Source: a virus
IMG/VR virus record: IMGVR_UViG_3300032282_000541
Location: 1 to 55,227 of that record
Strand: one strand, 5' to 3'
Length of the DNA: 55,227 nt
Translations under genes and position numbers: made by a program
Notes under the pieces: generated by a model
Told to the model about the DNA's origin: nothing
Seen by the model: only the letters and a program-made list of their open reading frames with translations
Databases searched by the model: none
Shown: piece after piece, positions 16,423 to 28,482 of the stretch
How the letters are laid out: the number at the start of each line of letters is the position of its first letter
Numbering within the stretch: the first letter of the stretch is position 1

Positions 16423-16680
16423 TTAATTCTCGTACACGCCAAGTTCACCGGGATTGATCCACTCTGCATGCAAACCACATTTGCTCAGGACTGCGTCAAT
16501 CTTTGGGTTGACTCCAAATATCCAATTGGGTTGTAGGTACCCATCGTAGTAGTCAGCCCACTTGTACGAATCGGGCTCCTCAGCGCTGATCTGGAAACGA
16601 CCATCCATGTCGTCACGGGTGTACACAGGTACGCCCAGCTTCTTGAGGGCGTTGAATGCTTTGATGTATGTGCGCTTCAT
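16423..16680 (-). CDS. Hypothetical protein
   Basis: 85 aa, GAGG upstream, ATGA overlap with the 196-aa gene. It contains FNALKKLGVPVYTRDDMDGR and an aromatic stretch (YKWADYYDGYLQPNWIFGVN). It looks like a compact alpha/beta protein. Its role is unknown. Confidence 0.6.
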   Translation of the reverse strand: MKRTYIKAFNALKKLGVPVYTRDDMDGRFQISAEEPDSYKWADYYDGYLQPNWIFGVNPKIDAVLSKCGLHAEWINPGELGVYEN

Positions 16681-17267
16681 GCTGTCACCTCTGTGGAAAT
16701 GACTTTGGGGCGCTGGATGACTGTTTGCTTCACGCCATTACGCACGCCGTGCTCTTTGATGGTGGCTATGATGGTGGCTGTCTCACCCTTGTCAGGAAAG
16801 CCATTGGCTTTGCCTTTGTAGATGATGGTGTTGTTGTTTTCATCTTCGCAGATGTTGATGTAGTTGGTGCCGTAGGTGCCGTCCAGAACGACAATGTGAA
16901 CAACCTTGATGGTGATGGTGGTCTTCTCGCCCACGGTGCCAATGTGCTCGCGTGTAGCGTCTATAGCGGCCTTCTTGTCAGCCCACTCTGCGCGACGTGC
17001 GGCACGGGCATCAATACCCTTCAAGACGGCCTCGCACTGCTTAGGGGATAACTTACCAAAGGTGTCAAGAGCATAGGCCATGGAGCCCATGAAATCGTCT
17101 TTGTACATCACGTTGCCATTGCGGTATTCGCGGCCAGCCTCGGAAGCTTCAAGGATTTCAAGAGCGCGAGGGTTGTTAGCCAACCATGTTTTGCGTGCGT
17201 TGAAAAGAATGTTGCGCTTGACGGCGTTTGCATATGCTACGGGGTGCTCGATATGTTCTGTTGACAT
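16677..17267 (-). CDS. Hypothetical protein led by operator/promoter site 1
   Basis: 196 aa, AGGAG before the ATG. The first half is helical and basic (VKRNILFNARKTWLANNPRA). The second half looks like a beta-barrel of OB type (TTITIKVVHIVVLDGTYGTN, then INICEDENNNTIIYKGKANG). A nucleic-acid-binding early protein is plausible. It is the first gene after an extended -10 promoter at 17309-17317 and a leader with a small hairpin. Confidence 0.6.
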   Translation of the reverse strand: MSTEHIEHPVAYANAVKRNILFNARKTWLANNPRALEILEASEAGREYRNGNVMYKDDFMGSMAYALDTFGKLSPKQCEAVLKGIDARAARRAEWADKKAAIDATREHIGTVGEKTTITIKVVHIVVLDGTYGTNYINICEDENNNTIIYKGKANGFPDKGETATIIATIKEHGVRNGVKQTVIQRPKVISTEVTA

Positions 17268-17308
17268 GTTGATCTCCTGATTTAAACCTGCGTCATTGCA
17301 GTGAAAGA

Positions 17309-17328
17309 ACTATAACACAAAATTAGAT
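17309..17328 (-). promoter_or_regulatory. Operator/promoter site 1
   Basis: Contains TATAACACAAAATTAGAT, a variant of the recurring palindrome, overlapping a minus-strand extended -10 (TGTTATAGT, 17309-17317). The following leader (about 17267-17305) has a CTGC/GCAG hairpin, then TTTAAA and AGGAG. It lies over the last codons of the 79-aa gene. Confidence 0.6.
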
Positions 17329-17549
17329 TGTTTGAGATATTGTTTGGCGCGGCGCTTGTCGGCAATCGACATTGGCAAGCCCTGCTCCATGCGCTCGACC
17401 AGTCCCTTTTCGTATGCATAAGGATCGCAATCTGCCCAAGCGGTGTCGCCAAACTGCTCGGCACGCTCTTCGGCTGTCAGTTCAATGCGGGGGAGCCCTT
17501 GCTCCTTCCGCATTTTGATCTCGGCCAGTAATTGCTGATGTGTTCTCAT
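17310..17549 (-). CDS. Hypothetical protein
   Basis: 79 aa with a weak RBS, so translation is probably coupled to the gene 10 bp upstream. A charged helical protein: EIKMRKEQGLPRIELTAEER and DKRRAKQYLKQSNFVL. Its last codons coincide with operator site 1. No family is recognised. Confidence 0.55.
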   Translation of the reverse strand: MRTHQQLLAEIKMRKEQGLPRIELTAEERAEQFGDTAWADCDPYAYEKGLVERMEQGLPMSIADKRRAKQYLKQSNFVL

Positions 17550-17558
17550 CTTTTGACT

Positions 17559-17846
17559 TTAGTAGGTGTAAAAGCCTGCGACTGCTCCGACGTAACCACC
17601 CATGCAAGTTTTGCGGCTGAACATCTCGCTGTAGTCTAATGCGCCAACCCAGCGGTTCCATGCGGGAATGAAGAACACAACGTAGCGAGCAGGCTTGGCT
17701 TCTTTGTCGAAGTAGGTGCCTGCGGCTTTGGAAGCGGCGGCGGTTGCCTTCTCTGCGGCCTGCTGTGTTGCGTAGTTCTTGCAAGGCTGTTTGTTGGTGG
17801 TGCGGTACTCTTCGATGCGTGCTGTGACTGTTTCGATGATGTTCAT
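17559..17846 (-). CDS. Hypothetical protein led by operator site 2
   Basis: 95 aa, AGGAG before the ATG, first gene after promoter site 2. An N-terminal helix rich in Ala/Lys (TQQAAEKATAAASKAAGTYF) is followed by an aromatic beta part (ARYVVFFIPAWNRWVGALDY). The C-terminus GGYVGAVAGFYTY is hydrophobic. It may be an early host-interaction protein; no family match. Confidence 0.6.
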   Translation of the reverse strand: MNIIETVTARIEEYRTTNKQPCKNYATQQAAEKATAAASKAAGTYFDKEAKPARYVVFFIPAWNRWVGALDYSEMFSRKTCMGGYVGAVAGFYTY

Positions 17847-17886
17847 GTTGATCTCCTTTTAAACCGATCTCGTTGACCGTGAGAGA

Positions 17887-17906
17887 ATTCTAACACGAAG
17901 TTAGAG
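17887..17906 (-). promoter_or_regulatory. Operator/promoter site 2
   Basis: TCTAACACGAAGTTAGAG overlaps the extended -10 TGTTAGAAT (minus strand, 17887-17895). A leader of about 40 bases with a possible CGGU/AUCG hairpin precedes AAGGAG of the 95-aa gene. Upstream, 17917-17934 reads (minus) CTAGGGTAAACACCTAAA, an element also found ahead of site 3. Confidence 0.7.
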
Positions 17907-17929
17907 TCTTGATTGTTTAGGTGTTTACC

Positions 17930-18256
17930 CTAGTCTTTTCTGATCGGCCTTGGCTGGCAGGTTTGGCCTTTGCCCATGGCTTTGTGGATGGTCGTCGCAG
18001 TCTCTAAGATGACCTCACCCTCCTCCAGTTTGTGTTCCACCTGCATGGCCGCTATATAAGCGATTTCTGCGCGGCTTATCTCGTCCTTTGCCAATAGCAA
18101 AGCTTTTGCCAGCAGGGAAGTGCTCAGGTTGACCATAACGTTGAGGGCAACCTGCATGTCGTGCTCGTCAATCAAGGCTTTCATCTTAGCGTGCAGGTAT
18201 GCCTCATTGGCATCAATGGCGTTGCTGATGGCTTTTATGGTTTTGTCGTCCATCAT
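17930..18256 (-). CDS. Hypothetical helical protein
   Basis: 108 aa, ATGA-coupled to the gene upstream. Entirely helical in appearance (IKAISNAIDANEAYLHAKMK; TSLLAKALLLAKDEISRAEI), with a basic tail. No family is recognised. It belongs to the coupled early cassette. Confidence 0.6.
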   Translation of the reverse strand: MMDDKTIKAISNAIDANEAYLHAKMKALIDEHDMQVALNVMVNLSTSLLAKALLLAKDEISRAEIAYIAAMQVEHKLEEGEVILETATTIHKAMGKGQTCQPRPIRKD

Positions 18257-18540
18257 TGTCTCTGGCTTGGTATACGGTTCAGAATGGCCTGAGCGACCGT
18301 TCTAAGGGCTGTGACTACCTCACCCTCATCTTCGTGGTCAGCAAAGGCCATAACAAGGTCAGCGCATGCCTGACGCTCAATCATGATGACCCGCTTGCTG
18401 GTCTCAATTGCCACCGTCATGATCTCGGCCTTGGCGATGGTGATGGCATCGTCGAACTCAGCTTGGGTGAAGAATGTCACTGCGCCTGAACCACCCAACA
18501 GTTGCCGGGCCAGTTGGCTCATTTCTTTTTTCTCGGTCAT
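18253..18540 (-). CDS. Hypothetical helical protein
   Basis: 95 aa. A Thr/Glu/Lys start (MTEKKEMSQLARQLLGG) precedes amphipathic helices (FDDAITIAKAEIMTVAIETS) and ERQACADLVMAFADHEDEGE. The pattern ERQACA...A is common in small phage proteins of unknown role. It is coupled to genes on both sides. Confidence 0.6.
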   Translation of the reverse strand: MTEKKEMSQLARQLLGGSGAVTFFTQAEFDDAITIAKAEIMTVAIETSKRVIMIERQACADLVMAFADHEDEGEVVTALRTVAQAILNRIPSQRQ

Positions 18541-18737
18541 TTGAATTTCCTCACATTGGAAAACGGAATGTCAATTGGCTTTTCTGGTGGTGGTGGAGGC
18601 ATATTGGCGCTGGGTGGCACCCACCCATGTTTTCGCCAGATGGCCTGCACGTCAGACCCGCTACTCCATTTGAATTCGGCAGTAGGTATGCTGGGGTAGC
18701 TGATCTTTGAGTGCGGTGGCAAAGTGATCTTGCTCAT
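18537..18737 (-). CDS. Proline-rich small protein
   Basis: 66 aa, AAGGGA upstream. The core WSSGSDVQAIWRKHGWVPPS occurs in many small phage proteins of unknown function. It is followed by a run of prolines (MPPPPPEKP) and a basic end. Structure and job are unknown. Confidence 0.6.
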   Translation of the reverse strand: MSKITLPPHSKISYPSIPTAEFKWSSGSDVQAIWRKHGWVPPSANMPPPPPEKPIDIPFSNVRKFK

Positions 18738-18746
18738 GAAAATCCC

Positions 18747-19028
18747 TTATTCAGAATATGCAATGGCTTGCAGTTTACTGATACGCTCATTGATCTCAGT
18801 CACGGTCTTCTGGTATTCGGCCATGACCTTTTGCTTTTGCTTTTCCAATGCGGCAATTTTTTGTGCCCGTGGATCATAGTCTTCTGGCACGTCAATTTCG
18901 ATTTGTTGTTCGCAGACATAGGTGCGGTAATTGTCGTCGTCAGCTTTGAAGCTAAGAACCTCAAACTGGCCTTCTTCATCCCATTCGTACTTGCAATAGT
19001 GAATGTGTGCGGTTGTTTTGACTTTCAT
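18747..19028 (-). CDS. Hypothetical protein with C-terminal coiled coil
   Basis: 93 aa from the ATG at 19028 (AAGGAG; ATGA overlap upstream). The N-terminal half has beta strands (VKTTAHIHYCKYEWDEEGQF). The C-terminal half is a coiled coil (IAALEKQKQKVMAEYQKTVT). No family is recognised. Confidence 0.6.
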   Translation of the reverse strand: MKVKTTAHIHYCKYEWDEEGQFEVLSFKADDDNYRTYVCEQQIEIDVPEDYDPRAQKIAALEKQKQKVMAEYQKTVTEINERISKLQAIAYSE

Positions 19029-19234
19029 GCTAGGGCTCCTTTGGCAAGTTTCATTTGGCGTTCGCGGATGGCATCGATCTCTGCCCACAATTTGATGTAG
19101 TAGGGATCGTCGGTTGGCAGGTGGTTGTTCACCTGCAAAGTGGTATGGCAGTCTTGCAATGCATGGGCACACATGTTGGAGTCGTACCCCTTAAATTTGT
19201 TGGTGCAGGTTTCGCGCAATTGTCCGTATGTCAT
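19025..19234 (-). CDS. Hypothetical protein
   Basis: 69 aa, AAGGA upstream. It has three Cys/His residues in CTNKFKGYDSNMCAHALQDC followed by a helix (YIKLWAEIDAIRERQMKLAK). The Cys spacing is not a clear zinc motif. Coupled to the next gene by ATGA. Confidence 0.55.
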   Translation of the reverse strand: MTYGQLRETCTNKFKGYDSNMCAHALQDCHTTLQVNNHLPTDDPYYIKLWAEIDAIRERQMKLAKGALA

Positions 19235-19271
19235 AGTGTTTTCCTTGTGGGGGCCAAAGCCCCCGAGTTGA

Positions 19272-19619
19272 TTACTTGACTGGTGTCACGCGGATGTCGG
19301 CGCGGCCTTCTTTGCGGAAGGTGTTCAGCACGTCCTTCTGGATGCCGTATGCCACGCACAGCTTGGCGTAGTCCACGGTGCCAGAGACTGCGACCAGCTT
19401 GACAGTGACAGAATGCAATTCGCCTTTGTGTGGAATGTCGTCGCCGTTGGCATCTTTTGCACATTCGCCATATTTGTTGGCGATGGCATGCTTCATTGCC
19501 TCAACTTGTTTTGCCAATGCCTTGGCTTGCTGGTCGAGCACGAAGAGTGCGTCGATATCGTTTGTGAAAGACTCGATAGTTGCGAGTGCTTGGATAGTGG
19601 CTTGTGTTTCTGTGATCAT
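19272..19619 (-). CDS. Hypothetical protein led by operator site 3
   Basis: 115 aa, GGAGA before the ATG. An N-terminal coiled coil (FVLDQQAKALAKQVEAMKHA) leads into a small alpha/beta part (LHSVTVKLVAVSGTVDYAKL, then AYGIQKDVLNTFRKEGRADI). The shape resembles phage proteins that help siphovirus Gp157-type or recombination-related functions, but this is not secure. It is the first gene after promoter site 3. Confidence 0.6.
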   Translation of the reverse strand: MITETQATIQALATIESFTNDIDALFVLDQQAKALAKQVEAMKHAIANKYGECAKDANGDDIPHKGELHSVTVKLVAVSGTVDYAKLCVAYGIQKDVLNTFRKEGRADIRVTPVK

Positions 19620-19659
19620 TTGGAATCTCCATTTAAACCTGCGATGTTGCAGTGAACGA

Positions 19660-19679
19660 AGTCTAACACAAAGTTAGAT
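19660..19679 (-). promoter_or_regulatory. Operator/promoter site 3
   Basis: A consensus copy, TCTAACACAAAGTTAGAT, overlaps the minus-strand extended -10 TGTTAGACT (19660-19668). The leader has a CTGC/GCAG hairpin and TTTAAA, very like site 1. The element TTAGGGAAAGCACCTAC (minus strand, about 19711-19727) lies upstream as at site 2. Confidence 0.7.
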
Positions 19680-19745
19680 TCTGTTGGCAAGACTTTTCTC
19701 AATTATTTTTGTAGGTGCTTTCCCTAATGTTGTTATGTGAACTAT

Positions 19746-20018
19746 TTATTTAGTAGTCAGACTACTAAATACGTTTGAAACAGTGACATTCAGGGCATCC
19801 AACTCTTTCATTTTGGCTATAGCCCATGCACGTTTCTCCCCGTGCCAGCCCATCTTGGAGCCTTGGTGGCAGGACTTGCACAGAGCCACCACGGTGTAGT
19901 GCAGTCCCTGCTCAATGTGGTGGGCATCGGAGGGGCCGGGCACCCCGCATACAGAGCAGGGTTGCTCTTTGACCATACCTACCCACAGGCGCTCCAGCTT
20001 GTTGTAGCTACCGTTCAT
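19746..20018 (-). CDS. HNH endonuclease
   Basis: 90 aa from the ATG at 20018, overlapping the previous stop. It has the zinc and catalytic residues of a small HNH enzyme: CSVCG (Cys21, Cys24), DAHHIEQG (His33-His34), LCKSCHQGS (Cys47, Cys50, His51) and GWHGEK (His59). It should nick or cut DNA, for instance in recombination intermediates or packaging. The small size and position beside a RuvC-like gene favour a recombination role over homing. Its last codons contain a copy of the GTAGTCAGACTAC palindrome. Confidence 0.8.
   Translation of the reverse strand: MNGSYNKLERLWVGMVKEQPCSVCGVPGPSDAHHIEQGLHYTVVALCKSCHQGSKMGWHGEKRAWAIAKMKELDALNVTVSNVFSSLTTK
19748..19770. repeat. Extended copy of the dispersed palindrome
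   Basis: The core GTAGTCAGACTAC at 19753-19765 is extended to a 23-base inverted repeat that is perfect except for its central base. It is the longest copy of the family in this genome and lies at the end of the HNH gene. Confidence 0.85.
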
Positions 20019-20356
20019 GTCACCGCCTTGTCGAATGCCCGGTTGCTGGCCTCCTGAGAGCGCCACACGTCGATTCGTGCCTGCGCCGACACCAACCCCC
20101 AGCGATACGTTTCTTCGGCCTCTACGGCTGATTCCAGCCCATTCAGCACTTCGATGTAGACCGGGTCTGCGTAGGCTTCAATCTCGGCCACCGCCGCCGA
20201 CTTTGCCCGGCCATCTGATAACGCCGCTTTCATCAGCATGGCCTTCTGGCTTTTGCGGTACTCTTCCAGATACACCCGGTGCGCTCTGGCTTCCGCATAC
20301 TTGCGTCCGTGGGTGTACAGGTAGTCCACTGCGTCGTTGATGTCCTTCTGATTCAT
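20015..20356 (-). CDS. Hypothetical protein (recombination/replication cassette)
   Basis: 113 aa, GGGGAA upstream. Helical: MNQKDINDAVDYLYTHGRKY; ARAHRVYLEEYRKSQKAMLM; VEAEETYRWGLVSAQARIDV. It resembles small helical proteins found next to HNH and RuvC-like genes in phages. The family is common but its function is unknown to me. Confidence 0.65.
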   Translation of the reverse strand: MNQKDINDAVDYLYTHGRKYAEARAHRVYLEEYRKSQKAMLMKAALSDGRAKSAAVAEIEAYADPVYIEVLNGLESAVEAEETYRWGLVSAQARIDVWRSQEASNRAFDKAVT

Positions 20357-20392
20357 TTTGCTTCCCCTGAATTTGTCTTTTACGCCAGCCGC

Positions 20393-20842
20393 TCATGATC
20401 CGAACCGGGCGATCAATGCGGCATCTGCGAATGCTTGGCCTGCGCCCTTCTTGTCCAGTTCACGCCACTGCGGCCACAACTGCAACGCCTTTGACCTTGC
20501 CTCGTCCTTGTCCTTGCCGTTGACTCCAACGGCCTTCTTCCACGACTGAGGGGTGACGTTGGTCACAGGTATTTCAAGGGCTCCCAGCACGCCCATAACG
20601 CTTCCCACAGCATGGCCGAAGGTGAACATCGATGTCACACCTTGGCCGGGCATGGCACCCACCTGCTCAATCACAGCTTTGTCAATGTTGAGAAATCGAA
20701 TGAGGGATGCCAATGCGGCAGTGTTCACTCGGTTGTTCTTTCCAACCATGTAGGTGGGCATGCGCTCCCACTCAATTGGGTTGCCGTCTTCCAGCAAAAC
20801 AAATGCGCCGGACAGGCCGGGGTCGATACCAAGGACTCTCAT
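20393..20842 (-). CDS. RuvC-like Holliday junction resolvase
   Basis: 149 aa, GAGGAG upstream. The RNase H-fold motifs are in place: GIDPG with Asp7, AVIEQVGAMPGQG with Glu59, and a final QAFADAALIARF with Asp140. TFGHAVGSVMGVLGAL and VTPQSWKKAVGVNG are also family hallmarks. It should cleave four-way junctions and branched DNA, resolving replicating concatemers before packaging. Length is slightly short but normal for phage RuvC-like enzymes. It is coupled to the upstream 147-aa gene. Confidence 0.85.
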   Translation of the reverse strand: MRVLGIDPGLSGAFVLLEDGNPIEWERMPTYMVGKNNRVNTAALASLIRFLNIDKAVIEQVGAMPGQGVTSMFTFGHAVGSVMGVLGALEIPVTNVTPQSWKKAVGVNGKDKDEARSKALQLWPQWRELDKKGAGQAFADAALIARFGS

Positions 20843-21282
20843 GTGTTCTTCTCCTCGGCGTAGCCGTTCTTTAGCTTGAGTTTGGCTTCAATGGCTCTAG
20901 CAAATGATGTAACCATAGTCATTGTGCTTCTGTCTGGTTTTGTAGCTTCTTCCCACAAATTCCTAATTTCTTCTCCTTCTAGCCCTACCCATGTGCGCTG
21001 TGATGGGGTGATTGGGTCGCATATATGGCATACCTGACCTTGATTGCAATCACACACAGGCTCTTGGCTTTTCAACTCTGCAATAGCTTGGCGTAGTGCA
21101 GTGGTGGCGGCATCAATCTCTATATTGGCTTCATCTGCTCCACAGTTGCACTCATCTCGCTCAGAATCATTGGAGCATCCTTGGTGATGTTTTGGGCATG
21201 AATACCAAGTGTCTTCGCAGTAGTAATGCGTCTGCCTGTTGTTATCCAACGCCCTAAGCGCCTGTTTCAATACTTCAATCAT
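20839..21282 (-). CDS. Cys-rich hypothetical protein
   Basis: 147 aa. The first part (MIEVLKQALRALDN) looks like the small phage family in which a helical start precedes ATTALRQAIAEL. Two Cys clusters follow: YYCEDTWYSCPKHHQGC to CNCG (about 20-47), and CDCNQGQVCHICD (about 77-90). These may bind zinc. The C-terminal half is helical. It may be an early accessory protein; no function is known to me. Confidence 0.6.
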   Translation of the reverse strand: MIEVLKQALRALDNNRQTHYYCEDTWYSCPKHHQGCSNDSERDECNCGADEANIEIDAATTALRQAIAELKSQEPVCDCNQGQVCHICDPITPSQRTWVGLEGEEIRNLWEEATKPDRSTMTMVTSFARAIEAKLKLKNGYAEEKNT

Positions 21283-21440
21283 GCTTGTTTCTCCAACTGG
21301 CTTATGAATTCTTGAATTGTGAAAAAGGCTTCTTCTGCGCCAAACAAGCCCAATACTGGTTTGCCGTTTACCGAACCCGATGTTTCGATTAGCGCAAGCA
21401 GTGCAATCAATTCAACAAATTGTTCTTCAGTTATGTTCAT
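21279..21440 (-). CDS. Small helical protein
   Basis: 53 aa, GAGGAG 7 bases before the ATG, ATGA overlaps at both ends. It starts MNITEEQFVELIALLALIET and ends FISQLEKQA. It is a hydrophobic-helix peptide without a clear membrane anchor. It is unrecognised, but the RBS and coupling support it as real. Confidence 0.6.
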   Translation of the reverse strand: MNITEEQFVELIALLALIETSGSVNGKPVLGLFGAEEAFFTIQEFISQLEKQA

Positions 21441-21640
21441 GCTTGCTCTCCTCTGGCTCTGATGGCTTGGGCAATCGTGCTACCGATAACGCCAAAACCG
21501 GAATCGGCAATCGTTGCACAGGCTTCACGTTCAACGGCGGCTATTGTTTCCAATTGACCACGCAAATTAGCAATCGTCAGCAACAAAGAATCTCTTGCAG
21601 TTTTTAATCTTTCATATTCAATTGTTTCTTCATCGGTCAT
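21437..21640 (-). CDS. Small helical protein
   Basis: 67 aa with AAAGG upstream. A coiled-coil helix (YERLKTARDSLLLTIANLRG) is followed by EREACATIADSGFGVIGSTI, a pattern often seen in small phage proteins. Coupled by ATGA at both ends. Function unknown. Confidence 0.6.
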   Translation of the reverse strand: MTDEETIEYERLKTARDSLLLTIANLRGQLETIAAVEREACATIADSGFGVIGSTIAQAIRARGEQA

Positions 21641-21915
21641 GACTTGCCTTTCAATATAAATTTTGGACAGCGTTGCAAAATAAATCGTGATGGGGTTTGT
21701 GGTTTGCCAAACCTGTCAGGCATCTTGATGCACTTGTGATCGATGTAGTTCTTGCACTCAAAGCAAAGTCTGCGGTCGTCACCAATGTCTGCATCACGCT
21801 CCCACAACTTGTCGGCCAAGTTCCATGCATCGTCAGCACTCAACCCTTGCTCTTCAAACACCTTGCGACGACGTGTGTGTTTAGCGACTGCAATATCTGT
21901 TTCTTCTGCGGTCAT
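21637..21915 (-). CDS. Zinc-ribbon-like small protein
   Basis: 92 aa. The N-terminal half is helical (EQGLSADDAWNLADKLWERD). The C-terminal half has LCFECKNYIDHKC and later FILQRCPKF, four Cys in a spacing that could hold one zinc. Similar small proteins recur in proteobacterial phages. Its role is not known. Confidence 0.6.
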   Translation of the reverse strand: MTAEETDIAVAKHTRRRKVFEEQGLSADDAWNLADKLWERDADIGDDRRLCFECKNYIDHKCIKMPDRFGKPQTPSRFILQRCPKFILKGKS

Positions 21916-22355
21916 GCTGGAACCTTTAACATCATTTCTTGAGTGCGCTTCTCGGTGGCTCTATGAGCGGCGATCATGGTGCGTGCAGGTAAGTTCTCCA
22001 ACACCATTTCGTAGTCTTCCAACACGCCGCGCAAGGTGACCATGTCAGGGCCATTCAGGCGCAATGACATGCCCTTTTGCAAATGCCTCATGCCTGCGTT
22101 TGCCAGTGCTGTGACTGCGTCTCCAATGGCATCTTGCTCGTCGGCAACAAGACCCATATCCAGCAATGTCTGCATCATGTTCACTGCATCAAAAACAACT
22201 TCCCAGTCTTTGAGAGTGACTTCAGGGGCTCTCTCAATATTTTCAAGGCCAGCCTTCATGATGGTGAGTTGGTTGTCACGTTTTTGTTTTGGCAGTGGCT
22301 CTGTTGGGCTTGCCAGCAGTACATCCCAATGGCTGTAGCTGAATTTGGGTTTCAT
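21912..22355 (-). CDS. Hypothetical protein led by operator site 4
   Basis: 147 aa, AGGAG upstream, the first gene of the site 4 transcript. Mostly helical (VVFDAVNMMQTLLDMGLVAD; AIGDAVTALANAGMRHLQKG; MVTLRGVLEDYEMVLENLPA). The pattern resembles small phage proteins that count heterologous helices, but I recognise no family. An early regulatory or host-takeover role is possible from the promoter alone. Confidence 0.6.
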   Translation of the reverse strand: MKPKFSYSHWDVLLASPTEPLPKQKRDNQLTIMKAGLENIERAPEVTLKDWEVVFDAVNMMQTLLDMGLVADEQDAIGDAVTALANAGMRHLQKGMSLRLNGPDMVTLRGVLEDYEMVLENLPARTMIAAHRATEKRTQEMMLKVPA

Positions 22356-22392
22356 CTTTTCTCCTGTTATCCCACAACGGTGTGGTGCCTAC

Positions 22393-22412
22393 ATTCTAAC
22401 ACAAAGTTAGAT
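22393..22412 (-). promoter_or_regulatory. Operator/promoter site 4
   Basis: A consensus copy, TCTAACACAAAGTTAGAT, overlaps the minus-strand extended -10 TGTTAGAAT (22393-22401). The leader begins with a strong hairpin (CCACA, loop CCGT, TGTGG) and then AGGAG. The site covers the last codons of the 77-aa gene. Confidence 0.7.
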
Positions 22413-22640
22413 TTCTGAAATGGTGATTGTTGAATCTACTCTGTTGATATGCATAGTTCCTGTGGTCACAAAATTCCAGTCGTGATCGTTGGGGTCTGCC
22501 TCAGTGTGTGAGTGGGCCAACAGCCAAACCCTCTTGCAAATCCATTCTTTGCCAGTCTCATCGAACACACGCCACTTGTGATCGATGGTGCCCCTGCCGG
22601 GTTGCCCGGCAGACTTGTTGTATCTGATCCTGAATTTCAT
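22407..22640 (-). CDS. Small beta-rich hypothetical protein
   Basis: 77 aa from the ATG at 22640 with GGAGGT just upstream, overlapping the oxygenase stop. Strands are apparent (MKFRIRYNKSAGQ; HKWRVFDETGKEWICKRVWL; TGTMHINRVDSTITISEI). It may work with the 2OG oxygenase that is translated first. No family is recognised. Confidence 0.6.
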   Translation of the reverse strand: MKFRIRYNKSAGQPGRGTIDHKWRVFDETGKEWICKRVWLLAHSHTEADPNDHDWNFVTTGTMHINRVDSTITISEI

Positions 22641-23272
22641 ATCACCTCCACGTCGGGCTCTTGTGGCTCTGGTGCTACTGCCACCGATAGGTTCATGTGA
22701 ACGAACCTCATGGGCTCTTGGCTCATGTTTTTGGTGAAAGAGTGGGGTAGCCATGCATTTGCAAATATCAGGGTTCCTGCATCCGGCGTGAACACGACTT
22801 GATGTGATCCCATGGTGATCTTGTTGGCATCCTTCTCAGGCAGGTTGATGATCACCTTGGCGTGCCTCGGATCGTGCAATACCAGCTTGCATGAGTTCTT
22901 GGGTGCGTCGATGAAATAGAACGCACTGATCTGCACTCCATGGCCGTGGATATGGGTTTCCATTGAAGACATGTGGCTGTGTTCTTGCGTCCACATCTCA
23001 GTGAAGAACGTCACCAAACTATCCATGTTGTAGCCCTGCGACTCAAGAATGTTCCATGCGGTCTGCGACACGTACCGGGAAAACTCTTCCAACTCTGGTT
23101 CATGTGCATAGGTTCCGGTCATAAGGGTGGCACCTTTTGAACCTTCACGATTGGCTTCTTCATACCTCGAAGACACTGTGCGAACTGCCTCCAAAAACTC
23201 AGGTTTTTTCACCACATAAATCGGGCTGGCAAAGTAGTGCGCTTCTTCAAGTTTGTCCATTCGTTTCTCCAA
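22637..23272 (-). CDS. Putative 2-oxoglutarate/Fe(II) oxygenase
   Basis: 211 aa, GGAGAA upstream, led by operator site 5. The double-stranded beta-helix signature can be followed. HIHGHGVQISAFYFIDAP (His107/109/111) supplies the first metal ligands. LIFANAWLPHSFTKN has the distal His177, and EPMRFVHMNLSV supplies an Arg189 for 2OG. Phage members of this class are thought to hydroxylate protein or nucleic-acid targets. The usual HxD is replaced by HxH, as in a subset of phage enzymes, so activity is likely but not certain. A small beta protein is coupled downstream. Confidence 0.7.
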   Translation of the reverse strand: MEKRMDKLEEAHYFASPIYVVKKPEFLEAVRTVSSRYEEANREGSKGATLMTGTYAHEPELEEFSRYVSQTAWNILESQGYNMDSLVTFFTEMWTQEHSHMSSMETHIHGHGVQISAFYFIDAPKNSCKLVLHDPRHAKVIINLPEKDANKITMGSHQVVFTPDAGTLIFANAWLPHSFTKNMSQEPMRFVHMNLSVAVAPEPQEPDVEVI

Positions 23273-23285
23273 ATAAATTCACGTC

Positions 23286-23305
23286 AGTCTAACATAGGGT
23301 TTGAT
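23286..23305 (-). promoter_or_regulatory. Operator/promoter site 5 (degenerate)
   Basis: TCTAACATAGGGTTTGAT keeps one good half-site and overlaps the extended -10 TGTTAGACT (minus strand). It leads the 2OG oxygenase gene. The second half is degenerate and no leader hairpin is evident, so regulation may be weaker here. Confidence 0.5.
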
Positions 23306-23314
23306 TCTTCAGTC

Positions 23315-23334
23315 AAAAAAATCGGAGGCTCTCC
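23315..23334 (-). terminator. Weak terminator-like hairpin
   Basis: On the minus strand GGAG, a 3-base loop, CTCC and GA are followed by seven T. The stem is short, but it lies exactly where the structured RNA segment would have to end before promoter site 5. Confidence 0.45.
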
Positions 23335-23580
23335 CCCTTATTGACTCCTTATCAATCCTTTCACCCAAAGACCCCCCTACCCCAGACGGAGTAGAGAGGG
23401 AAGGTGCTTCACCCCACTTGCGTGGATCATCATGTGAACGGTTTTACGTTCGACCCCTCGGCTTGATGATTCGACCAGCCGACTGGATTATTCGGGAACT
23501 GCCCCCTAGCCTTGCGGCATACCAGCTACGCTTTCCTTCCGCGCCACCACGACTGGGGTGCTTACTTTCGTGCGGAGTAC
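23335..23580 (-). ncRNA. Candidate structured RNA with tetraloops and a pseudoknot
   Basis: No convincing reading frame exists in this stretch. On the minus strand two hairpins are capped by GCAA (GNRA) loops: CCAC-GCAA-GTGG (23414-23425) and GCC-GCAA-GGC (23509-23518). A 6-bp stem pairs 23458-23463 with 23477-23482. Its loop (23464-23470) can pair with 23426-23432 over 7 bp, giving a pseudoknot that encloses a GAACG/CGTTC hairpin (23436-23451). More distant complements also exist: ACCCCAG with CTGGGGT. The length, phage setting and adjoining tRNA recall the large ornate phage RNAs such as GOLLD, but I cannot claim membership. The strand is chosen from the tetraloops and T-runs. Confidence 0.5.
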
Positions 23581-23597
23581 GGCAGGGGTGAGAAAAC

Positions 23598-23691
23598 AAA
23601 AAAAGCCGTTAAGACAAACCCCGGTGAGAACTCATCCCCCTTTTGAGAGGATGGCACCCCATGCGGGGTCGGAGTTTGACTTAACGGCTTT
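23598..23691 (-). terminator. Large terminator with a structured apical domain
   Basis: A 12-bp perfect stem (23602-23613 with 23680-23691) continues for 5 bp after one mismatch (23615-23619 with 23674-23678). The minus-strand RNA ends in seven U. The apex carries two more hairpins: CATCC/GGATG (23633-23653) and ACCCC/GGGGT with an ATGC loop (23656-23669). It would terminate leftward transcripts that pass through the tRNA. A 20-codon frame starts at 23694, just before the stem. Confidence 0.75.
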
Positions 23692-23780
23692 CATTTGCAC
23701 AGGTTCTCACGCCTTGCAATTCAAATTCTATCAACAGGTCTCACGACATGTCAACACCAAAAACAAAATGGTGTCGCATT

Positions 23781-23855
23781 TGGTAGCGGGGGCTGGATTC
23801 GCACCAGCGATCTACGGGTTATGAGCCTGTCGAGTTACTACTTCTCCACCCCGCA
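23781..23855 (-). tRNA. tRNA with CAT anticodon, initiator (fMet)-like
   Basis: 75 bases including an encoded CCA end. The cloverleaf reads closely like bacterial initiator tRNA. Acceptor bases 2-7 are GCGGGG, paired with CCCCGC. Position 1 (T) cannot pair with position 72 (T), the mark of initiators. The D stem has A11:T24, another initiator trait. The loop is CTCATAA (anticodon at 23821-23823). Only two of the three G:C pairs typical of the anticodon stem remain (an A opposite C replaces the third), and the D loop lacks the usual GG. The T loop reads TGCGAAT. The gene overlaps the end of a Cys-rich frame upstream. Confidence 0.85.
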
Positions 23856-24103
23856 ATAAGTTGTCGGCTACTTGCATTGTCTGGTTGACAATTAAGCAAC
23901 GTGGCGGTCTAGGCCATCCTTCAGCATCCGCTTTCACCAACAAGAGTATGGACTGTTTGCAGTTGCGACCTGCACAGAGCATCGGGATGAATGACTTGGG
24001 TTCGGCTGGCTTGCAAGACACCTTACCGCAGAGGTCACATGACCGACTTCATACCTGCCAATCCACACACTTGTTGGCGTTGGCGTTTACAGTCCACCAA
24101 CAC
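23812..24103 (-). pseudogene. Broken zinc-ribbon-like gene (frameshift)
   Basis: Two overlapping frames together resemble one Cys-rich protein. The first (GTG at 24103 or 24097 to a TGA at 24035) contains VDCKRQRQQVCGLAGMKSVM. The second, open from 24048 to 23812, continues with CDLCGKVSCKPAEPKSFIPM and LCAGRNCKQS. Joining needs a one-base shift at ATG-TGA-C near 24037. The second frame has no good start that includes CDLCG (a GTG at 24021 is possible). Its last codons run into the tRNA. Either a mutation, a sequence error or a programmed shift could explain this. Confidence 0.4.
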
Positions 24104-24117
24104 GACCTTCTAGAGGG

Positions 24118-24987
24118 TCAGGAATATACCATTTCTTTTTTCTTCAGTTCCATGACCTTCGCAACGACCGCAAAAAGGCTTTCCCTTTGATGCAGGTCGT
24201 TGGCATCCCATCCCACAGTATCGGCCATCGTCCAAGGCAAACCTGTACTTATTGCCGATTTTTCTCCAGTCTTAGATTCATCGTTGTCGGCAAAAACATA
24301 CACCCTGCCGGGCACCTGATCGGCCACCTGCACCATGTTGCTGGCGCTGAAGCACACAACCACCGCCGCAGGCATGCCAACGCTCTTCAGGGCGTGTTTT
24401 AAGGACATCCCTGTGGCTACCCCTTCGACCAGCCAACTCTCGCCTGCATCGCGGTTTCCCAGCGTCAGGACGGCGTTCTTTGCCCTCATGCCATGGAGCA
24501 TCTTCTTTTCATACTTGCGAGTCTCTACGTCCCATCTGATCGACTGGTAGCCCTGCAACTTGTTGGTCACCACGTTCCGCATGGGGATCAACAGTTTGTC
24601 GTCCAGCACCAGCCCACGGGCTTCCTTGAACCCTTTGATCTCAAGGTAGGGGTGGTAGTCCTGCTTGGCCGACCGCAGGGTGATGTCAGCCTGCAAGGCG
24701 GCGTACTCGTACTTCTTGTCCTGTTCGCTGGCCGCTGTGGATCGTTTAGCCGCCCATGCACGCTTTTCTTCGTCAGTCCATGGTTTGGCATGCGGGTCTT
24801 CGTACCAGATCACTCTGGCCTCTCCTGACCAGTCCATGACCCATCCACGCTCACCATCCCAGAAGTAGGCACCATTGCCGGACTTTGGCTTCTCTACGGT
24901 GCCACACCGCTTGATCTTGTCGGACGCATACAGGCGGGTGTGATCAATCTCAACACCATGGGCTCGGGCAAAGTCAACGAAACGCAT
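24118..24987 (-). CDS. TOPRIM DNA primase-like protein
   Basis: 289 aa. The C-terminal part is a TOPRIM domain: LVEGVATGMSLKHAL with Glu188, then RVYVFADNDES with Asp234 and Asp236. The region before it (LLIPMRNVVTNKLQGYQSIR) matches the part of phage primases that precedes TOPRIM. A small N-terminal segment (to about 60) has one Cys and GAYFWDGERGWVMDWSGEAR, as in primases with reduced zinc parts. It would prime replication, working with the SF2 helicase gene two positions upstream. No DnaB-type helicase domain is fused, unlike many phage primases. Confidence 0.8.
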   Translation of the reverse strand: MRFVDFARAHGVEIDHTRLYASDKIKRCGTVEKPKSGNGAYFWDGERGWVMDWSGEARVIWYEDPHAKPWTDEEKRAWAAKRSTAASEQDKKYEYAALQADITLRSAKQDYHPYLEIKGFKEARGLVLDDKLLIPMRNVVTNKLQGYQSIRWDVETRKYEKKMLHGMRAKNAVLTLGNRDAGESWLVEGVATGMSLKHALKSVGMPAAVVVCFSASNMVQVADQVPGRVYVFADNDESKTGEKSAISTGLPWTMADTVGWDANDLHQRESLFAVVAKVMELKKKEMVYS

Positions 24988-25177
24988 ACGCCCCCCTTAC
25001 ACCACACAGGCGTTCATACTTGGCACCACGCTTAAGGCGCTTGCACACATTGGCCTTGCTTTGAGCTTTGGCCTTCTGTTGAAGTTGTGCTGAAGTCAAG
25101 GGCGCTGGCGGCTCGTTGTACTGATACACCGAAAACCCGACAGCAACGGCCAGACAAACCAAATATTCTTTAATCAT
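24974..25177 (-). CDS. Small secreted or membrane-anchored protein
   Basis: 67 aa from the ATG at 25177, overlapping the helicase stop. An N-terminal hydrophobic stretch (MIKEYLVCLAVAVGFSVYQY) is a signal or anchor. The rest is basic with two Cys (NVCKRLKRGAKYERLCGVRG). The 3' end overlaps the primase start by 14 bases. Function unknown. Confidence 0.55.
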   Translation of the reverse strand: MIKEYLVCLAVAVGFSVYQYNEPPAPLTSAQLQQKAKAQSKANVCKRLKRGAKYERLCGVRGAYAFR

Positions 25178-26703
25178 TTGCCAGCCCCTTTCTTCCACGC
25201 CATGTTCAGTTGGGTAATTTTATTGATCACGTTCTTGCCAATCTCAACTGTAGGCGCAGTGGTGAACTTCCACGTCGGGTCTTGCCCGGTAATCTTCTTG
25301 AACAGGTGGTAGGCGCGGCCTTGTTGGTTTTCAGGCTTGCTGTGAATGCGTGCGTAGTTCACGACTTGGTGCCACAGGTGCTCGGCGTTGTCGGCAATCT
25401 TTTTCTTGTTCTTACCCTCGCCAATGAAGATTTCCTTCATGTGGCCGGGCAGTGCTTCGCTGATCTGCGTGCTGACCTTCTCGTGGCCGCAGGCCATGCA
25501 CCGCTTGTGAAACGGCTTGTAGCCACAGCGTGGGCAACCCTTGGCCTCAAACTCCTCCTGCTTACGAATGGCCTTGTCCAGCTTCTCGCCGTCGTCCAAC
25601 TTCGCCAGACCATTGAAGTAGATGTCGTTGAAGTCCTCAAAGAAGCGCACGATGTTGCCGCTGAAGTCCAGCAGGTAGCAGTCCTTCTTGCCAGTCTCGT
25701 TGGATGAGCGCAGGCCACGCCCCCACATCTGGATCGCAGTAGACAGCGACTTGCGTAAAGGACGGGCATCACAGATACAACCCACGTCAGGCACGTCAAA
25801 ACCCTTTGCAAGAGCCTCTACGCTGATCAGCACCCGCAAGTGGCTGTCGGGCTTCCTATACTCCTTCAGGAGGTCTTCCCGCTCCTTGGCGGTGGTGTCC
25901 GAAGTGAACACAGCGGCCATCACGCCGCTTGTAATAAATTGCCGGGCCATTTCTTCACAGTGCTTGATGGTCGCGCCAAACACAATGGTCTTGCGGTTCT
26001 CGCCAAACCTGTGCCAGTCAGCGACTACGTCACCAATAATTGCCATGCCACGCTCTTCAGCGGCTTTGTCTGTCCATTCGCCGCCTGCGGTAGCCGCGCC
26101 AGTCATGTCAGGCTTGTGGCAAGAGAAGATTCGCATAGGCACCAGCACGCCGTTTTGCGTCAGGTCGTACATGGTGGTGGCGTTGATCAAGTTGGTGAAT
26201 ATCTTGCCCAAGCCAACTGTGAAGGGTGTGGCCGATAAACCGACTACAGCGGCACCAGTGCTTTGTGCAAACTCAGTCCACGCCTTGTAAGCAGTGTGGG
26301 CTTCATCGACCACCAGAACATCCATCTTCGGCCAGAACTCACGCTTGGCAATCGTCTGGACGGATGCAATCTGCAACAGTTCGTCGGGCTTACGTCTCCA
26401 GTGATTGGCCTGAATTATCCCGTGGCTGTGCAGGCCGTAGTTGTCGGCCACCGTGGATGTTTGGTTGATCAGCGTGGTGCGGTCGCACAGGAATACTGCA
26501 CGCTTACCACGCTGGATCGCTTCATTGCAAATTCTCAACCCGAGGTAGGTCTTACCCGCCCCGGTGGGAGCCATGATGAGTTGGTTTTTATGCCCCTCAC
26601 GGAACCCCTGTCTCAATTCGTTGTGAGCATCAACTTGAAACTGCCGGGGGGTTGGGAATTTTGATCCATCATCACGCTCACTTGGCGCTAGGGAGTTGGT
26701 CAT
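25174..26703 (-). CDS. SF2 DEAH-box helicase with zinc finger
   Basis: 509 aa. Motif I is APTGAGKT (residues 45-52), motif II DEAH (133-136), motif III SATPF (157-161). Motif VI lies in IQMWGRGLRSSNETGKKDCYLLDF-like sequence near residue 330-345. A C-terminal zinc finger (CPRCGY then CMACGHEK, near 405-425) may bind DNA. It resembles Rad3/UvsW/Ssl2-like phage helicases that unwind forks and branched DNA. Next to the primase it is probably the replication or origin-melting helicase. The ATG is coupled to the ParB-like gene upstream. Confidence 0.9.
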   Translation of the reverse strand: MTNSLAPSERDDGSKFPTPRQFQVDAHNELRQGFREGHKNQLIMAPTGAGKTYLGLRICNEAIQRGKRAVFLCDRTTLINQTSTVADNYGLHSHGIIQANHWRRKPDELLQIASVQTIAKREFWPKMDVLVVDEAHTAYKAWTEFAQSTGAAVVGLSATPFTVGLGKIFTNLINATTMYDLTQNGVLVPMRIFSCHKPDMTGAATAGGEWTDKAAEERGMAIIGDVVADWHRFGENRKTIVFGATIKHCEEMARQFITSGVMAAVFTSDTTAKEREDLLKEYRKPDSHLRVLISVEALAKGFDVPDVGCICDARPLRKSLSTAIQMWGRGLRSSNETGKKDCYLLDFSGNIVRFFEDFNDIYFNGLAKLDDGEKLDKAIRKQEEFEAKGCPRCGYKPFHKRCMACGHEKVSTQISEALPGHMKEIFIGEGKNKKKIADNAEHLWHQVVNYARIHSKPENQQGRAYHLFKKITGQDPTWKFTTAPTVEIGKNVINKITQLNMAWKKGAGK

Positions 26704-27491
26704 TTTTTGCCTTTCAGCTTATCGTTTTCTTTTTGAAGTTTCTTGCAAAGTTTTACTGCCTCGTTACGCTCATTCATCAACCCATGTATACGAACGTCAA
26801 GTTGAGCGTTCAGATGGTTCAGGCGTGTGATTTCGGCGTGTGCTGTTGCCAGTGCGTCGTCGGATTCCAACAGCTTGTACATGGCATCTTGGTCGGCCTG
26901 TAAAGCCAACTCATTTGCCTTCAGTTCAGCCTCGTCCGGGCCTTCGCCAACAAATGAGATTTCCTCAGAAAGCGTAGTCTGACTACTAGTTGCGGCCTCC
27001 TCAACGATCTGCTTGGCCTTCTCGACGGTGTGCTTTTTCTTAGACTCAGCCTGCTTTTTCTTGGTCTCCGGGTTACGGAGGGCACCAACAAATGACCGGG
27101 AAACGGCACAAATCTTGGCAATTTCGTAGTCGGTTTCGTCTTTGGTCAACTCATGAACCATGGCCGCTTCAACCACCTTGCGCTTGTCTTCATTGGTGCG
27201 TGGCTTGCCGTGCGTGCCATTGACACCAAACGACATGACCTGCGCTTCAAGTTGAGTGCCGGGCTTGTAGTTGATGTCCACTTGCTTGATGCCCAACAAC
27301 TTGTAAGCGTGATAGCGATGAAAGCCATCTACCAGCCAATGTGTTGCGCCATCAAACACCGTGAGCAAGGCGGGGAATACATCCCCTTCCTTCATGCACT
27401 CAACGTAGTGGTAGACAAGCTGTTGATCGATTAACTCACGGCCTTGGGTGCCGCCGTCGATCCTAATATCGTTCAAGTTTACTTTTTTCAT
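26700..27491 (-). CDS. ParB-like DNA-binding protein
   Basis: 263 aa, GGAGAC upstream. Residues 1-75 are ParB/sulfiredoxin-like, with the box LVDGFHRYHAYKLLGIKQ (53-70) that in ParB family proteins supports nucleotide (CTP) handling or nuclease activity. A helix-turn-helix follows (YEIAKICAVSRSFVGALRNP, about 122-141). The C-terminal half is a long coiled coil (NERNEAVKLCKKLQKENDKL). It may act in DNA segregation, transcription control or nicking. The gene itself contains one copy of the dispersed palindrome (26974-26986), a tempting parS-like site. Confidence 0.8.
   Translation of the reverse strand: MKKVNLNDIRIDGGTQGRELIDQQLVYHYVECMKEGDVFPALLTVFDGATHWLVDGFHRYHAYKLLGIKQVDINYKPGTQLEAQVMSFGVNGTHGKPRTNEDKRKVVEAAMVHELTKDETDYEIAKICAVSRSFVGALRNPETKKKQAESKKKHTVEKAKQIVEEAATSSQTTLSEEISFVGEGPDEAELKANELALQADQDAMYKLLESDDALATAHAEITRLNHLNAQLDVRIHGLMNERNEAVKLCKKLQKENDKLKGKK
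26974..26986. repeat. Dispersed palindrome inside the ParB-like gene
   Basis: GTAGTCTGACTAC, with the same flanks (AAGC before, TAGT after) as the minus-strand copies at 12401. In the protein it falls in a TSSQTT coding stretch with the same codons as the copy in the tail fibre gene at 49254. Confidence 0.85.
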
Positions 27492-27521
27492 TCATGTCTC
27501 CATTAAATACCCAACATCGGG

Positions 27522-27722
27522 TCAGTCAAACAAATCAGGGCGCAGTTCTTTTGCTGTCACGAGACCTTGTGTGGCCTTCTCAATTTTTCTTGCCAAAACA
27601 AACGATGGACGGCGTGCTTTTCGGATCAGTAGTCCCAGCCATGTCTGGGTGATTCCGAGGTGATCAGCCATCTCTTTTTTTGATCCGTATGGTTCATCCT
27701 TGAAATACTGCTTCAGGTTCAT
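27522..27722 (-). CDS. Small HTH repressor (Cro/YdaS-like)
   Basis: 66 aa from the ATG at 27722, preceded by AAAGGAG. KKEMADHLGITQTWLGLLIR (about 16-35) is a helix-turn-helix like those of Cro and YdaS proteins. The C-terminus (KIEKATQGLVTAKELRPDLF) matches the end of the YdaS-like fold (GLVTxxxLRPD). It starts about 20 bases below operator site 6, so it may bind that site and the five other copies. It would switch early promoters off, including its own. With no integrase found, this may be a lytic timing switch. Confidence 0.8.
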   Translation of the reverse strand: MNLKQYFKDEPYGSKKEMADHLGITQTWLGLLIRKARRPSFVLARKIEKATQGLVTAKELRPDLFD

Positions 27723-27742
27723 ACAACTCCTTTCTGTGAAAT

Positions 27743-27775
27743 AGTCTAACACAATATTAGATTGTGTGTTATAGT
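27743..27775. promoter_or_regulatory. Divergent promoter region with operator site 6
   Basis: TCTAACACAATATTAGAT (27745-27762) overlaps a minus-strand extended -10 TGTTAGACT (27743-27751) for the repressor gene. A plus-strand extended -10 TGTTATAGT (27767-27775) lies alongside for the rightward genes. The rightward leader starts with a perfect hairpin (CGGTC, loop GCGTT, GACCG) before AAGGAA. One bound dimer could control both directions. Confidence 0.7.
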
Positions 27776-27834
27776 CTTCCCACGGTCGCGTTGACCGGGC
27801 TGATGTCCTACGGGACGATTTACAAAGGAAGATT

Positions 27835-28482
27835 ATGAGCTTTATCGTGGAAGACAAAGGCGGCGACTTTGAGCGTTGCCCACAAGGAATGCACCTTGCA
27901 CGGTGCTACCGAATCATTGATCTGGGCACCCAGAAGTCTGAGTACATGGGTCAGGTCAAGTATTTGCACAAGGTCATGTTGGGCTGGGAAATCCACGGCA
28001 TGAACGACGATGGTACTGCCATCAAGATGAAGGATGGTCGACCATTTGCCATCTTCAAAAACTACACCTTGTCATGGTCTGAAAAAGCCAACTTGCGTCT
28101 TGACCTCCAGTCATGGCGTGGCAAAGCTTTCACGCAGGAGGAGATGCGGAAGTTTGACCTGAAGAACGTGCTTGGTGCCTTCTGCATGTTGAACGTAATT
28201 GAACGCCCCGGACAAGACGGCAAGACGTACACCAACGTCAATGGCGTGACTCCAGTGCCTGCAATGATCAAGCAAAACGGTCTGCCTGCTCCAGTCAACA
28301 CCAACGAGATGTTCAACCTTCAAGAGCCTGACTGGGTCATGTTTGAGAACTTCAGCGACAACCTCAAGAAGAAGATCATCTCTTCACCTGAGTTTGAAAA
28401 GGCGAAGGGTGGTGCACAGCCAGCAAAGCAAGCGCCTGCGGCCAGCATGGCTGATGATGATCTTGACGATATTCCTTTCTGA
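27835..28482 (+). CDS. Single-stranded DNA-binding protein (phage type)
   Basis: 215 aa, AAGGAA upstream, first gene of the rightward unit. The body is beta-rich (MHLARCYRIIDLGTQKSEYM). It ends in a flexible Ala/Pro/Gln linker and a DDDLDDIPF tail, the acidic tip used by SSB proteins to recruit partners. It resembles the conserved phage replication protein in the SSB-like group that sits near Cas4/RecB-type exonucleases. It should coat single-stranded DNA during replication and recombination. The tail is clear; the OB-fold family name is less sure. Confidence 0.75.
   Translation: MSFIVEDKGGDFERCPQGMHLARCYRIIDLGTQKSEYMGQVKYLHKVMLGWEIHGMNDDGTAIKMKDGRPFAIFKNYTLSWSEKANLRLDLQSWRGKAFTQEEMRKFDLKNVLGAFCMLNVIERPGQDGKTYTNVNGVTPVPAMIKQNGLPAPVNTNEMFNLQEPDWVMFENFSDNLKKKIISSPEFEKAKGGAQPAKQAPAASMADDDLDDIPF

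Follow-up and report, generated by a model that had tools for sequence, protein, structure and literature searches.

A promoter-borne operator and its likely repressor

The DNA analysed here, referred to as the window, is the entire virus record IMGVR_UViG_3300032282_000541 of IMG/VR (55,227 bases). It contains a repeated palindrome, a putative operator, and a gene for a 66-amino-acid (66-aa) helix-turn-helix (HTH) protein, and we consider it likely that this protein is a Cro-type repressor which, with no CI partner detected, shuts off its own gene together with a scattered early regulon. An earlier note, made from the sequence alone, had suggested one regulator for several early transcripts. 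This is still the best-supported interpretation; it draws on the overlap of the sites with promoter -10 elements, the fixed spacing of their arms, the Cro/YdaS type of the protein, the operator at its own gene, the way in which residue 30 of the protein tracks the operator sequence, and the failure to find an integrase family in 31 records. The presumed 'early' timing rests on gene content.

All six palindromes of the earlier note were located where it had placed them (17311, 17889, 19662, 22395, 23288 and 27745). A palindrome scan of the window found perfect matches to TCTAAC-N5-GTTAGA at 17889, 19662 and 22395; the sites at 23288 and 27745 had one mismatch each and that at 17311 had two. The significance of the palindrome count depends on mismatch stringency. 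With up to three mismatches the bare palindrome was not enriched in the window (12 versus 12.04 expected), whereas six sites were found with up to two mismatches (mean 0.95 and maximum 3 in 60 dinucleotide shuffles) and five with up to one (zero in the same number of shuffles). The counts at these two stricter settings exceed those of shuffled sequence, the comparison by which the note had proposed to judge the motif. The full 18-mer with up to three mismatches occurred 5 times versus 0.03 expected, the site at 23288 not being recovered. An iterated weight matrix, refined on 49 sequences, returned only the same six places when the whole window was scanned. Over all 49 sequences it gave 375 strand hits versus 2-21 for 20 column-permuted matrices, and since it was trained on those same sequences, only this contrast counts. 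No site was thus found outside 17.3-27.8 kb or in the structural-gene stretches of the window, so the description of the operator as phage-wide had to be rejected in its strict form as too strong, and 'early-region-wide' is more apt.

Each of the six sites lies just upstream of a minus-strand open reading frame (ORF) that bears a Shine-Dalgarno-like sequence. The genes behind them are small genes of unknown function, a 2-oxoglutarate (2OG)-Fe(II) oxygenase gene and one divergent pair, with the 66-aa gene on one side, ahead of ParB-like, helicase and primase genes, and a 215-aa gene on the other. On the minus strand the ORF-proximal arm reads TGTTAGACT, TGTTAGAAT or TGTTATAGT, all consistent with an extended -10. 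It had been claimed that each right half forms part of such an element, and the ORF-proximal arms agree with this. At 27745 the 18-mer covers the -35/spacer region of the rightward promoter, and the -10 of that promoter (TGTTATAGT, 27767-27775) lies outside it. The same site, described before as standing in the divergent region beside the HTH gene, is indeed a predicted operator at that gene's own divergent promoter. The predicted features are listed in Table 1.

Table 1. Predicted promoters, operators, leader hairpins and the proposed repressor gene in the window
Feature	Position	Strand	Remarks
Operator/extended -10 promoter TGTTATAGT	17309..17328	-	-10 hexamer 17309-17314; 196-aa gene 16677-17267
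Predicted start for 196-aa gene	~17302	-	from spacing
Leader hairpin CTGC-N6-GCAG	17288..17301	-	read from sequence; minimum-energy fold of the whole leader favours another pairing
Operator/extended -10 promoter TGTTAGAAT	17887..17906	-	predicted start ~17880; 95-aa gene 17559-17846
Leader hairpin CGGTC-N5-GATCG	17865..17879	-	one G-U pair
Operator/extended -10 promoter TGTTAGACT	19660..19679	-	predicted start ~19653; 115-aa gene 19272-19619
Leader hairpin CTGC-N6-GCAG	19639..19652	-	covarying stem (13 leaders from the 115-aa gene family)
Operator/extended -10 promoter TGTTAGAAT	22393..22412	-	predicted start ~22386; 147-aa gene 21912-22355
Leader hairpin CCACA-N4-TGTGG	22372..22385	-	
Operator/extended -10 promoter TGTTAGACT	23286..23305	-	2OG-Fe(II) oxygenase gene 22637-23260; degenerate distal arm TCAAAC; leader without hairpin
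Operator on leftward promoter TGTTAGACT	27743..27762	-	66-aa repressor, ParB-like, helicase and primase genes; also spans -35/spacer of divergent rightward promoter
Rightward extended -10 TGTTATAGT	27767..27775	+	predicted start A27782; 215-aa gene 27835-28482
Leader hairpin 1, CGGTC-N5-GACCG	27783..27797	+	rightward transcript; stem covaries
Leader hairpin 2, GTCC-N4-GGAC	27805..27816	+	rightward transcript; one-sided variation only
66-aa YdaS/Cro-type HTH protein, proposed repressor	27522..27722	-	recognition helix 26-33; residue 30 = Gly

Promoter overlap and arm spacing in relatives

The 49 sequences contained 190 unique sites, 85 of which had an ORF start on one side, 95 on both and 10 on neither. 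When the gene side was compared with the opposite side, using the 85 one-sided sites and dropping the others, the extended -10 (TGTTA..nT) was found on the gene side in 64 and on the opposite side in 2. We also collected 313 promoter-like TGTTAnRnT sites from 114 sequences, each with a downstream Shine-Dalgarno sequence and start codon. A second arm, TAA, stood at one exact offset in 215 of them, and each of ten other offsets accounted for 0-6. It should be noted that both sets of counts include near-identical contigs; 182 two-arm promoters were left once exact copies were removed. Since the spacer of a promoter does not depend on such an arm, this spacing is most naturally read as the mark of a dimeric DNA-binding protein. 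The proposed operator takes the form of an inverted repeat of about 17 bp (arm CTAA, 7 bp, TTAG).

The proposed 66-aa regulator and a residue that may follow the operator

The 66-aa protein matched PF15943 (YdaS) with 38.7 bits (curated cut-off 30) and phrog_35, a transcriptional repressor family, at 5.3e-11. Its AlphaFold2 (AF2) model had a pLDDT of 91, and the nearest solved fold in a Foldseek search was YdaS of prophage CP-933P from Escherichia coli O157:H7 (8co2, TM-score 0.91, 34% identity), so that the two proteins have both family and fold in common. In the window, the inverted-repeat site overlaps the predicted divergent promoters of the 66-aa gene. The footprint of YdaS in CP-933P covers a pair of divergent promoters, one of them its own, within a stretch that holds 18-bp palindromes; the authors of that study left its exact binding sequence open (PMC8630535). 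Relatives were found in 130 IMG/VR stretches, the best 80 of which were retained, and two further queries added more. Most close relatives keep the double promoter and operator between the repressor gene and the divergent gene, and several have other elements inserted there. A homologue is annotated as 'putative antitoxin' in MW202545.1, and the Pfam name is 'bacterial toxin YdaS'; the context of the 66-aa gene speaks for a Cro-type regulator over a toxin or antitoxin label.

The operator sequence differed between groups of relatives. The top palindrome in de novo searches was TCTAA-7-TTAGA in 48 close sequences (66 versus ~0.8 expected), TTAAC-5-GTTAA in 23 group-B loci (23 versus ~0.3) and, in 5 group-C loci, CTTAA-7-TTAAG, level with TCTTA-9-TAAGA (10 versus ~0.1). 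Loci with Gly at residue 30 of the regulator had C as the arm base in 116 of 118 arms, and loci with Ser had T in 72 of 84. Palindrome types, counted by residue 30 in 82 loci, showed the same trend: 107 of the CTAA type (control 12.5) and 13 of the TTAA type (control 18.2) in 45 Gly loci, and 4 (control 1.5) and 90 (control 11.5), respectively, in 35 Ser loci. A tree of 74 distinct proteins (64 columns) had four changes of the Gly state. That residue 30 tracks the operator base is suggested by these counts, not proven.

A hairpin at the predicted start of most transcripts

The unit formed by operator and -10 element was borne out, and to it has to be added a hairpin at most predicted transcript starts, which the earlier note had overlooked. 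An inverted repeat started 3-9 nucleotides (nt) past the -10 in 149 of the 182 unique two-arm promoters, at exactly 7 nt in 96. By a strict count in 175 unique leaders, in which the repeat had to start 6-8 nt after the -10, it was present in 21 of 23 leaders of the divergent gene (shuffled mean 4.3) and 115 of 121 other leaders (14.8), versus none of 17 oxygenase leaders (1.4) and 1 of 14 repressor-gene leaders (1.4). The stem starts at the predicted transcript start or one base later, with CA preceding it in 86 of 137, and from this position the message would open with the hairpin. The sequence that follows is most often GTTTAA-, GTTAAG- or GTTTAT-like and not a U run, and the hairpin lies downstream of the -10.

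Two sets of leaders were aligned without regard to structure. One comprised 13 leaders from the 115-aa gene family, the other 18 leaders from the divergent gene, excluding the short-leader group around L057-L206. Paired cells made up 96.2% and 90.0%, respectively, and in both sets the covariation score was above that of every one of 500 shuffles and of all slid versions. When leaders were folded one by one, the energies were not striking: the mean z was -0.92 for the 105 of 129 unique leaders that fell within the length limits. The case for the hairpin is carried by its position and covariation. Bacterial messages are known to be protected by stem-loops, among other features (PMC7509114), and the hairpin here probably protects or insulates the 5' end of short-leader messages.

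The 182 promoters precede 41 protein families, 26 of them singletons; the 115-aa gene family alone has 32 two-arm promoters. Hairpin presence was nearly constant within each family, with 30/32, 25/27, 18/18, 10/12, 8/8 and 6/6 in the larger ones and 0/17 for the oxygenase, 1/15 for the repressor and 0/2 for a small family from one genome.

Lifestyle and host

The phage had been described as lacking an integrase, and in agreement with this, neither tyrosine integrase (PF00589) nor serine recombinase (PF00239) was found in any of 31 records. These were picked mainly by length; MW202545 is annotated as a complete circular phage genome, and the others may be incomplete. The S24 repressor domain (PF00717) was likewise found in none of them, CI-like proteins without an S24 domain not having been searched for, and the ParA-type ATPase (PF13614) was also not found in any of the 31. 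In 14 positive control genomes the same searches found tyrosine integrase in 14, serine recombinase in 10, S24 in 10 and ParA in 14. Neither the S24 partner nor the integrase of a lambda-type CI/Cro switch in an integrating phage was thus found in the 31 records. Of the features of P1-like immunity, the dispersed promoter-overlapping operators are present and ParA was not found in these records.

A scan of genome contigs recovered two relatives of the 66-aa gene, both on short contigs of metagenome-assembled genomes (MAGs) of 3.6 and 3.0 Mb whose names are betaproteobacterial or Burkholderiales. The host is probably a betaproteobacterium, with low certainty. The exact palindrome occurred at two places in the two MAGs, both on one contig of the same phage kind in one MAG; the terminase encoded on that contig is ~85% identical to that of the window. 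By annotation, Acidovorax phage AP1 (OM049504.1; L354, L355) has the same order of ParB-like, helicase and primase genes, and an Xre repressor and an integrase are annotated in addition. The only measured match of that gene order was the ParB-like protein, over 27% of the query at 66% identity; AP1 is possibly a distant, temperate relative of the replication block.

Proposed mechanism and alternative explanations

After injection, host polymerase would fire all these sigma-70-type promoters, including the divergent pair of the repressor. As the 66-aa repressor accumulates, a dimer would occupy the operators and occlude the -10 elements, and the scattered early units, the repressor's own gene included, would be shut off together by negative feedback. 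None of these operators stands at the window's structural genes. At most promoters the transcript would begin with A, followed by a hairpin of 4-7 bp, a short segment and the Shine-Dalgarno sequence, and the messages of the repressor and the 2OG oxygenase would lack the leader hairpin. We entertain a more far-reaching version only tentatively: that an integrase-less, CI-less Cro protein is the sole early master regulator, that genes were acquired behind a copied cassette, that residue 30 mainly sets specificity, and that the hairpin is kept off the repressor and oxygenase transcripts so that their decay or translation differs.

Several observations weigh against the main reading, early shut-off by the 66-aa repressor. 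The second arm was not at the exact offset in 98 of the 313 promoter-like sites. A -35 consensus was sought among the 182 unique two-arm promoters and only a weak enrichment of T was seen; the absence of such a consensus suits extended -10 promoters. That the protein represses rather than activates is deduced from the overlap of its sites with the -10. The de novo search gave no clear palindrome in group D (6 divergent loci, highest count 4). The arm base was mixed in 13 Ala and Phe loci, among them the Phe-30 locus L066 with C in 3 of 5 scored arms and the Ala-30 loci L211, L212, L214 and L216 with C or G, and also in the Ser-30 loci L057, L060, L199, L200, L201 and L202. The 64-column tree is weakly resolved, and it yields 3 independent residue-30 pairs at best and 1 on well-supported branches, so few that a sign test is unable to reach significance. 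As for the hairpins, pairs changed on both sides numbered 1 in the 115-aa family and 2 in the divergent gene, which did not clearly exceed the controls; nor did the count of different pair types. Moreover, it was in these very sequences that the structures had been read. The covarying leader repeats could in principle act as DNA; the 39 distinct stem pairs found among them argue against one DNA-binding protein on these repeats.

A further difficulty concerns records without the repressor gene. The exact 17-mer matched 68 stretches versus 7 for the reversed pattern. In the 65 stretches examined (the other 3 were on contigs already included), a repressor relative was present in 15 (13/50 and 2/15) and 50 showed none. 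A complete cassette, comprising the T at the end of the -10, a hairpin, a Shine-Dalgarno sequence and a start, followed 21 of 23 matches on repressor-bearing contigs; it was found in 18 of the 50 repressor-less records and in none of the other 32. Fifteen of these 18 records were shorter than 20 kb. Five of the 18, including all three longer than 20 kb, were searched with a profile, run without a positive control, and gave no hit. The neighbouring ParB-like and 215-aa genes were both not found in four of the five. In the fifth, the 215-aa gene begins 115 bases from the end of the contig, just before the point at which the repressor gene would be expected. Because of these missing neighbours and this contig end, the five examined records appear to be fragments that end before the repressor region.

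Three other explanations were weighed. The same repressor and operators might maintain a quiescent plasmid-like prophage with P1-style immunity instead of serving lytic early shut-off. Dispersed operators over promoters resemble those of P1 C1 (PMC8198154, PMC4713147), a ParB-like gene (phrog_1033) stands directly behind the repressor gene, and a second palindrome is present five times in the window. We nevertheless regard this as unlikely, for the ParA and plasmid searches disfavoured it: none of the 31 records had the ParA-type ATPase, and a plasmid collection held no repressor relative above 41% identity, its 5 matches all being E. coli or Salmonella records. Moreover, the ParB-like protein was assigned no family in the Pfam scan, and a 66-aa Cro-type protein ahead of same-strand helicase and primase genes fits feedback better than stable maintenance.

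It would also be conceivable that the element is merely a conserved promoter copied around the genome, with RNA polymerase as the sole binder and an incidental palindrome. The gene-side arm is already constrained by the -10, and the cassette does stand before 41 gene families, but the distal arm lies in the spacer, where no sequence is needed, and yet keeps one exact offset (215 versus at most 6), and its base differs with the type of regulator. This makes the explanation highly improbable. Finally, a host transcription factor might bind the palindrome and thereby let the phage sense the state of its host. The operator evidence is compatible with that, but the site is at the promoter of the phage regulator itself and tracks the helix of that protein. 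The distribution of the palindrome in the two MAGs, where it occurred exactly only on the contig of this phage kind (other possible hosts not having been searched), likewise disfavoured a host regulator, for which we see a very slim chance. Repression by the 66-aa protein thus remains our preferred explanation.

Comparison with known systems

In CP-933P, YdaS pairs with a CI-type partner, PaaR2, at the immunity region and one further promoter (PMC8630535), whereas no S24 or integrase family was found here and each site belongs to one of several early units that lie apart from one another. C1 of phage P1 is one repressor with many operators near or over lytic-gene promoters (PMC8198154, PMC4713147), as appears to be the case here; in contrast, P1 is a plasmid prophage with C1/Coi immunity, and the phages studied here have a Cro-like protein and hairpin leaders, with ParA not found. 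The stoperators of Cluster A mycobacteriophages likewise form many repressor sites across a phage genome, although their repressor is reported to bind an asymmetric sequence as a monomer and also to terminate elongation (PMC9283540); the sites here are inverted repeats fixed on -10 elements and not asymmetric. The PeSL elements of T4-type phages (Arbiol 2010; Comeau 2014) combine a reused early promoter with a stem-loop and are said to mediate gene shuffling, and one title describes them as 'promoter-terminator motifs', as given in a passage and the reference titles of PMC4503421. The present cassette resembles this idea, but its hairpin follows the promoter, standing where the transcript is predicted to begin, and it includes an operator.

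No published account of an operator-promoter-hairpin cassette, or of a Cro protein without detected CI partner combined with a dispersed early regulon and a 5'-hairpin cassette, was found among titles and abstract openings, a scope of partial coverage that did not include the T4 PeSL papers. Cro repression and dispersed operators as in P1 are of a known kind. Most work on Cro treats it as one half of a lysis-lysogeny switch, whereas here a Cro-family protein seems to act alone across numerous early units that stand apart from one another, and no integrase was detected in these phages. Because the operator can be read from sequence, it can be used to list early genes whose function is unknown in uncultured phages. 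The natural Gly-30/CTAA and Ser-30/TTAA pairs offer a ready-made test of specificity, and the covarying 5' hairpin, which two gene classes lack, opens a direct way to test what 5' structure contributes to the stability of phage messages.

Other elements

An RNA-like element of the form GGGG-AAAGCGGATGCT-(variable stem)-GACGYAGCGAGTA-CCCC(ACC) lies between the promoter and the repressor gene in several relatives (L012, L019, L021, L023, L025, L034 and L051). It occurred in at least 120 IMG/VR stretches, with 123 copies among the matches listed; the core length of 55-85 nt was set by the search pattern. Of the 114 distinct copies, 102 could form an outer helix of 4 bp or more, versus 39.75 with shuffled partners, and 24 helix types were seen. 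In 72 of the 123 listed copies a start codon was no more than 150 nt away, and 42 of these had it 20-29 nt downstream. The one segment searched had no Rfam match at E up to 1, and no complete copy was seen in the window. This may be an undescribed phage RNA family.

The second palindrome, GTAGTCWGACTAC, is present in the window at 12377, 12401, 19753, 26974 and 49254 and in none of 100 shuffles; the copy at 26974 is inside the ParB-like gene. In 22 of 44 Gly-30 relatives a related palindrome stands 704-764 bases past the repressor start, a distance at which it should fall in the ParB-like gene, and TACTA-7-TAGTA ranked second in enrichment among the palindromes of the family. GTAGTCWGACTAC is a candidate binding site of the ParB-like protein.

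About 490 bases of the window (23290-23780) have no gene assigned and adjoin a tRNA-Met gene (23781-23855, minus strand). An Rfam search of this region found tRNA only, plus two chance hits far below threshold, and a long inverted repeat was seen there by eye (AAAGCCGTTAAG at 23602-23613 and CTTAACGGCTTT at 23680-23691). On two contigs of related phages, Rfam identified the Betaproteobacteria-1 small RNA (sRNA; RF02932, 102.5 bits) at 13893-14010 of L012 and the int-alpA RNA (RF02996, 39 bits) at 16343-16410 of L019.

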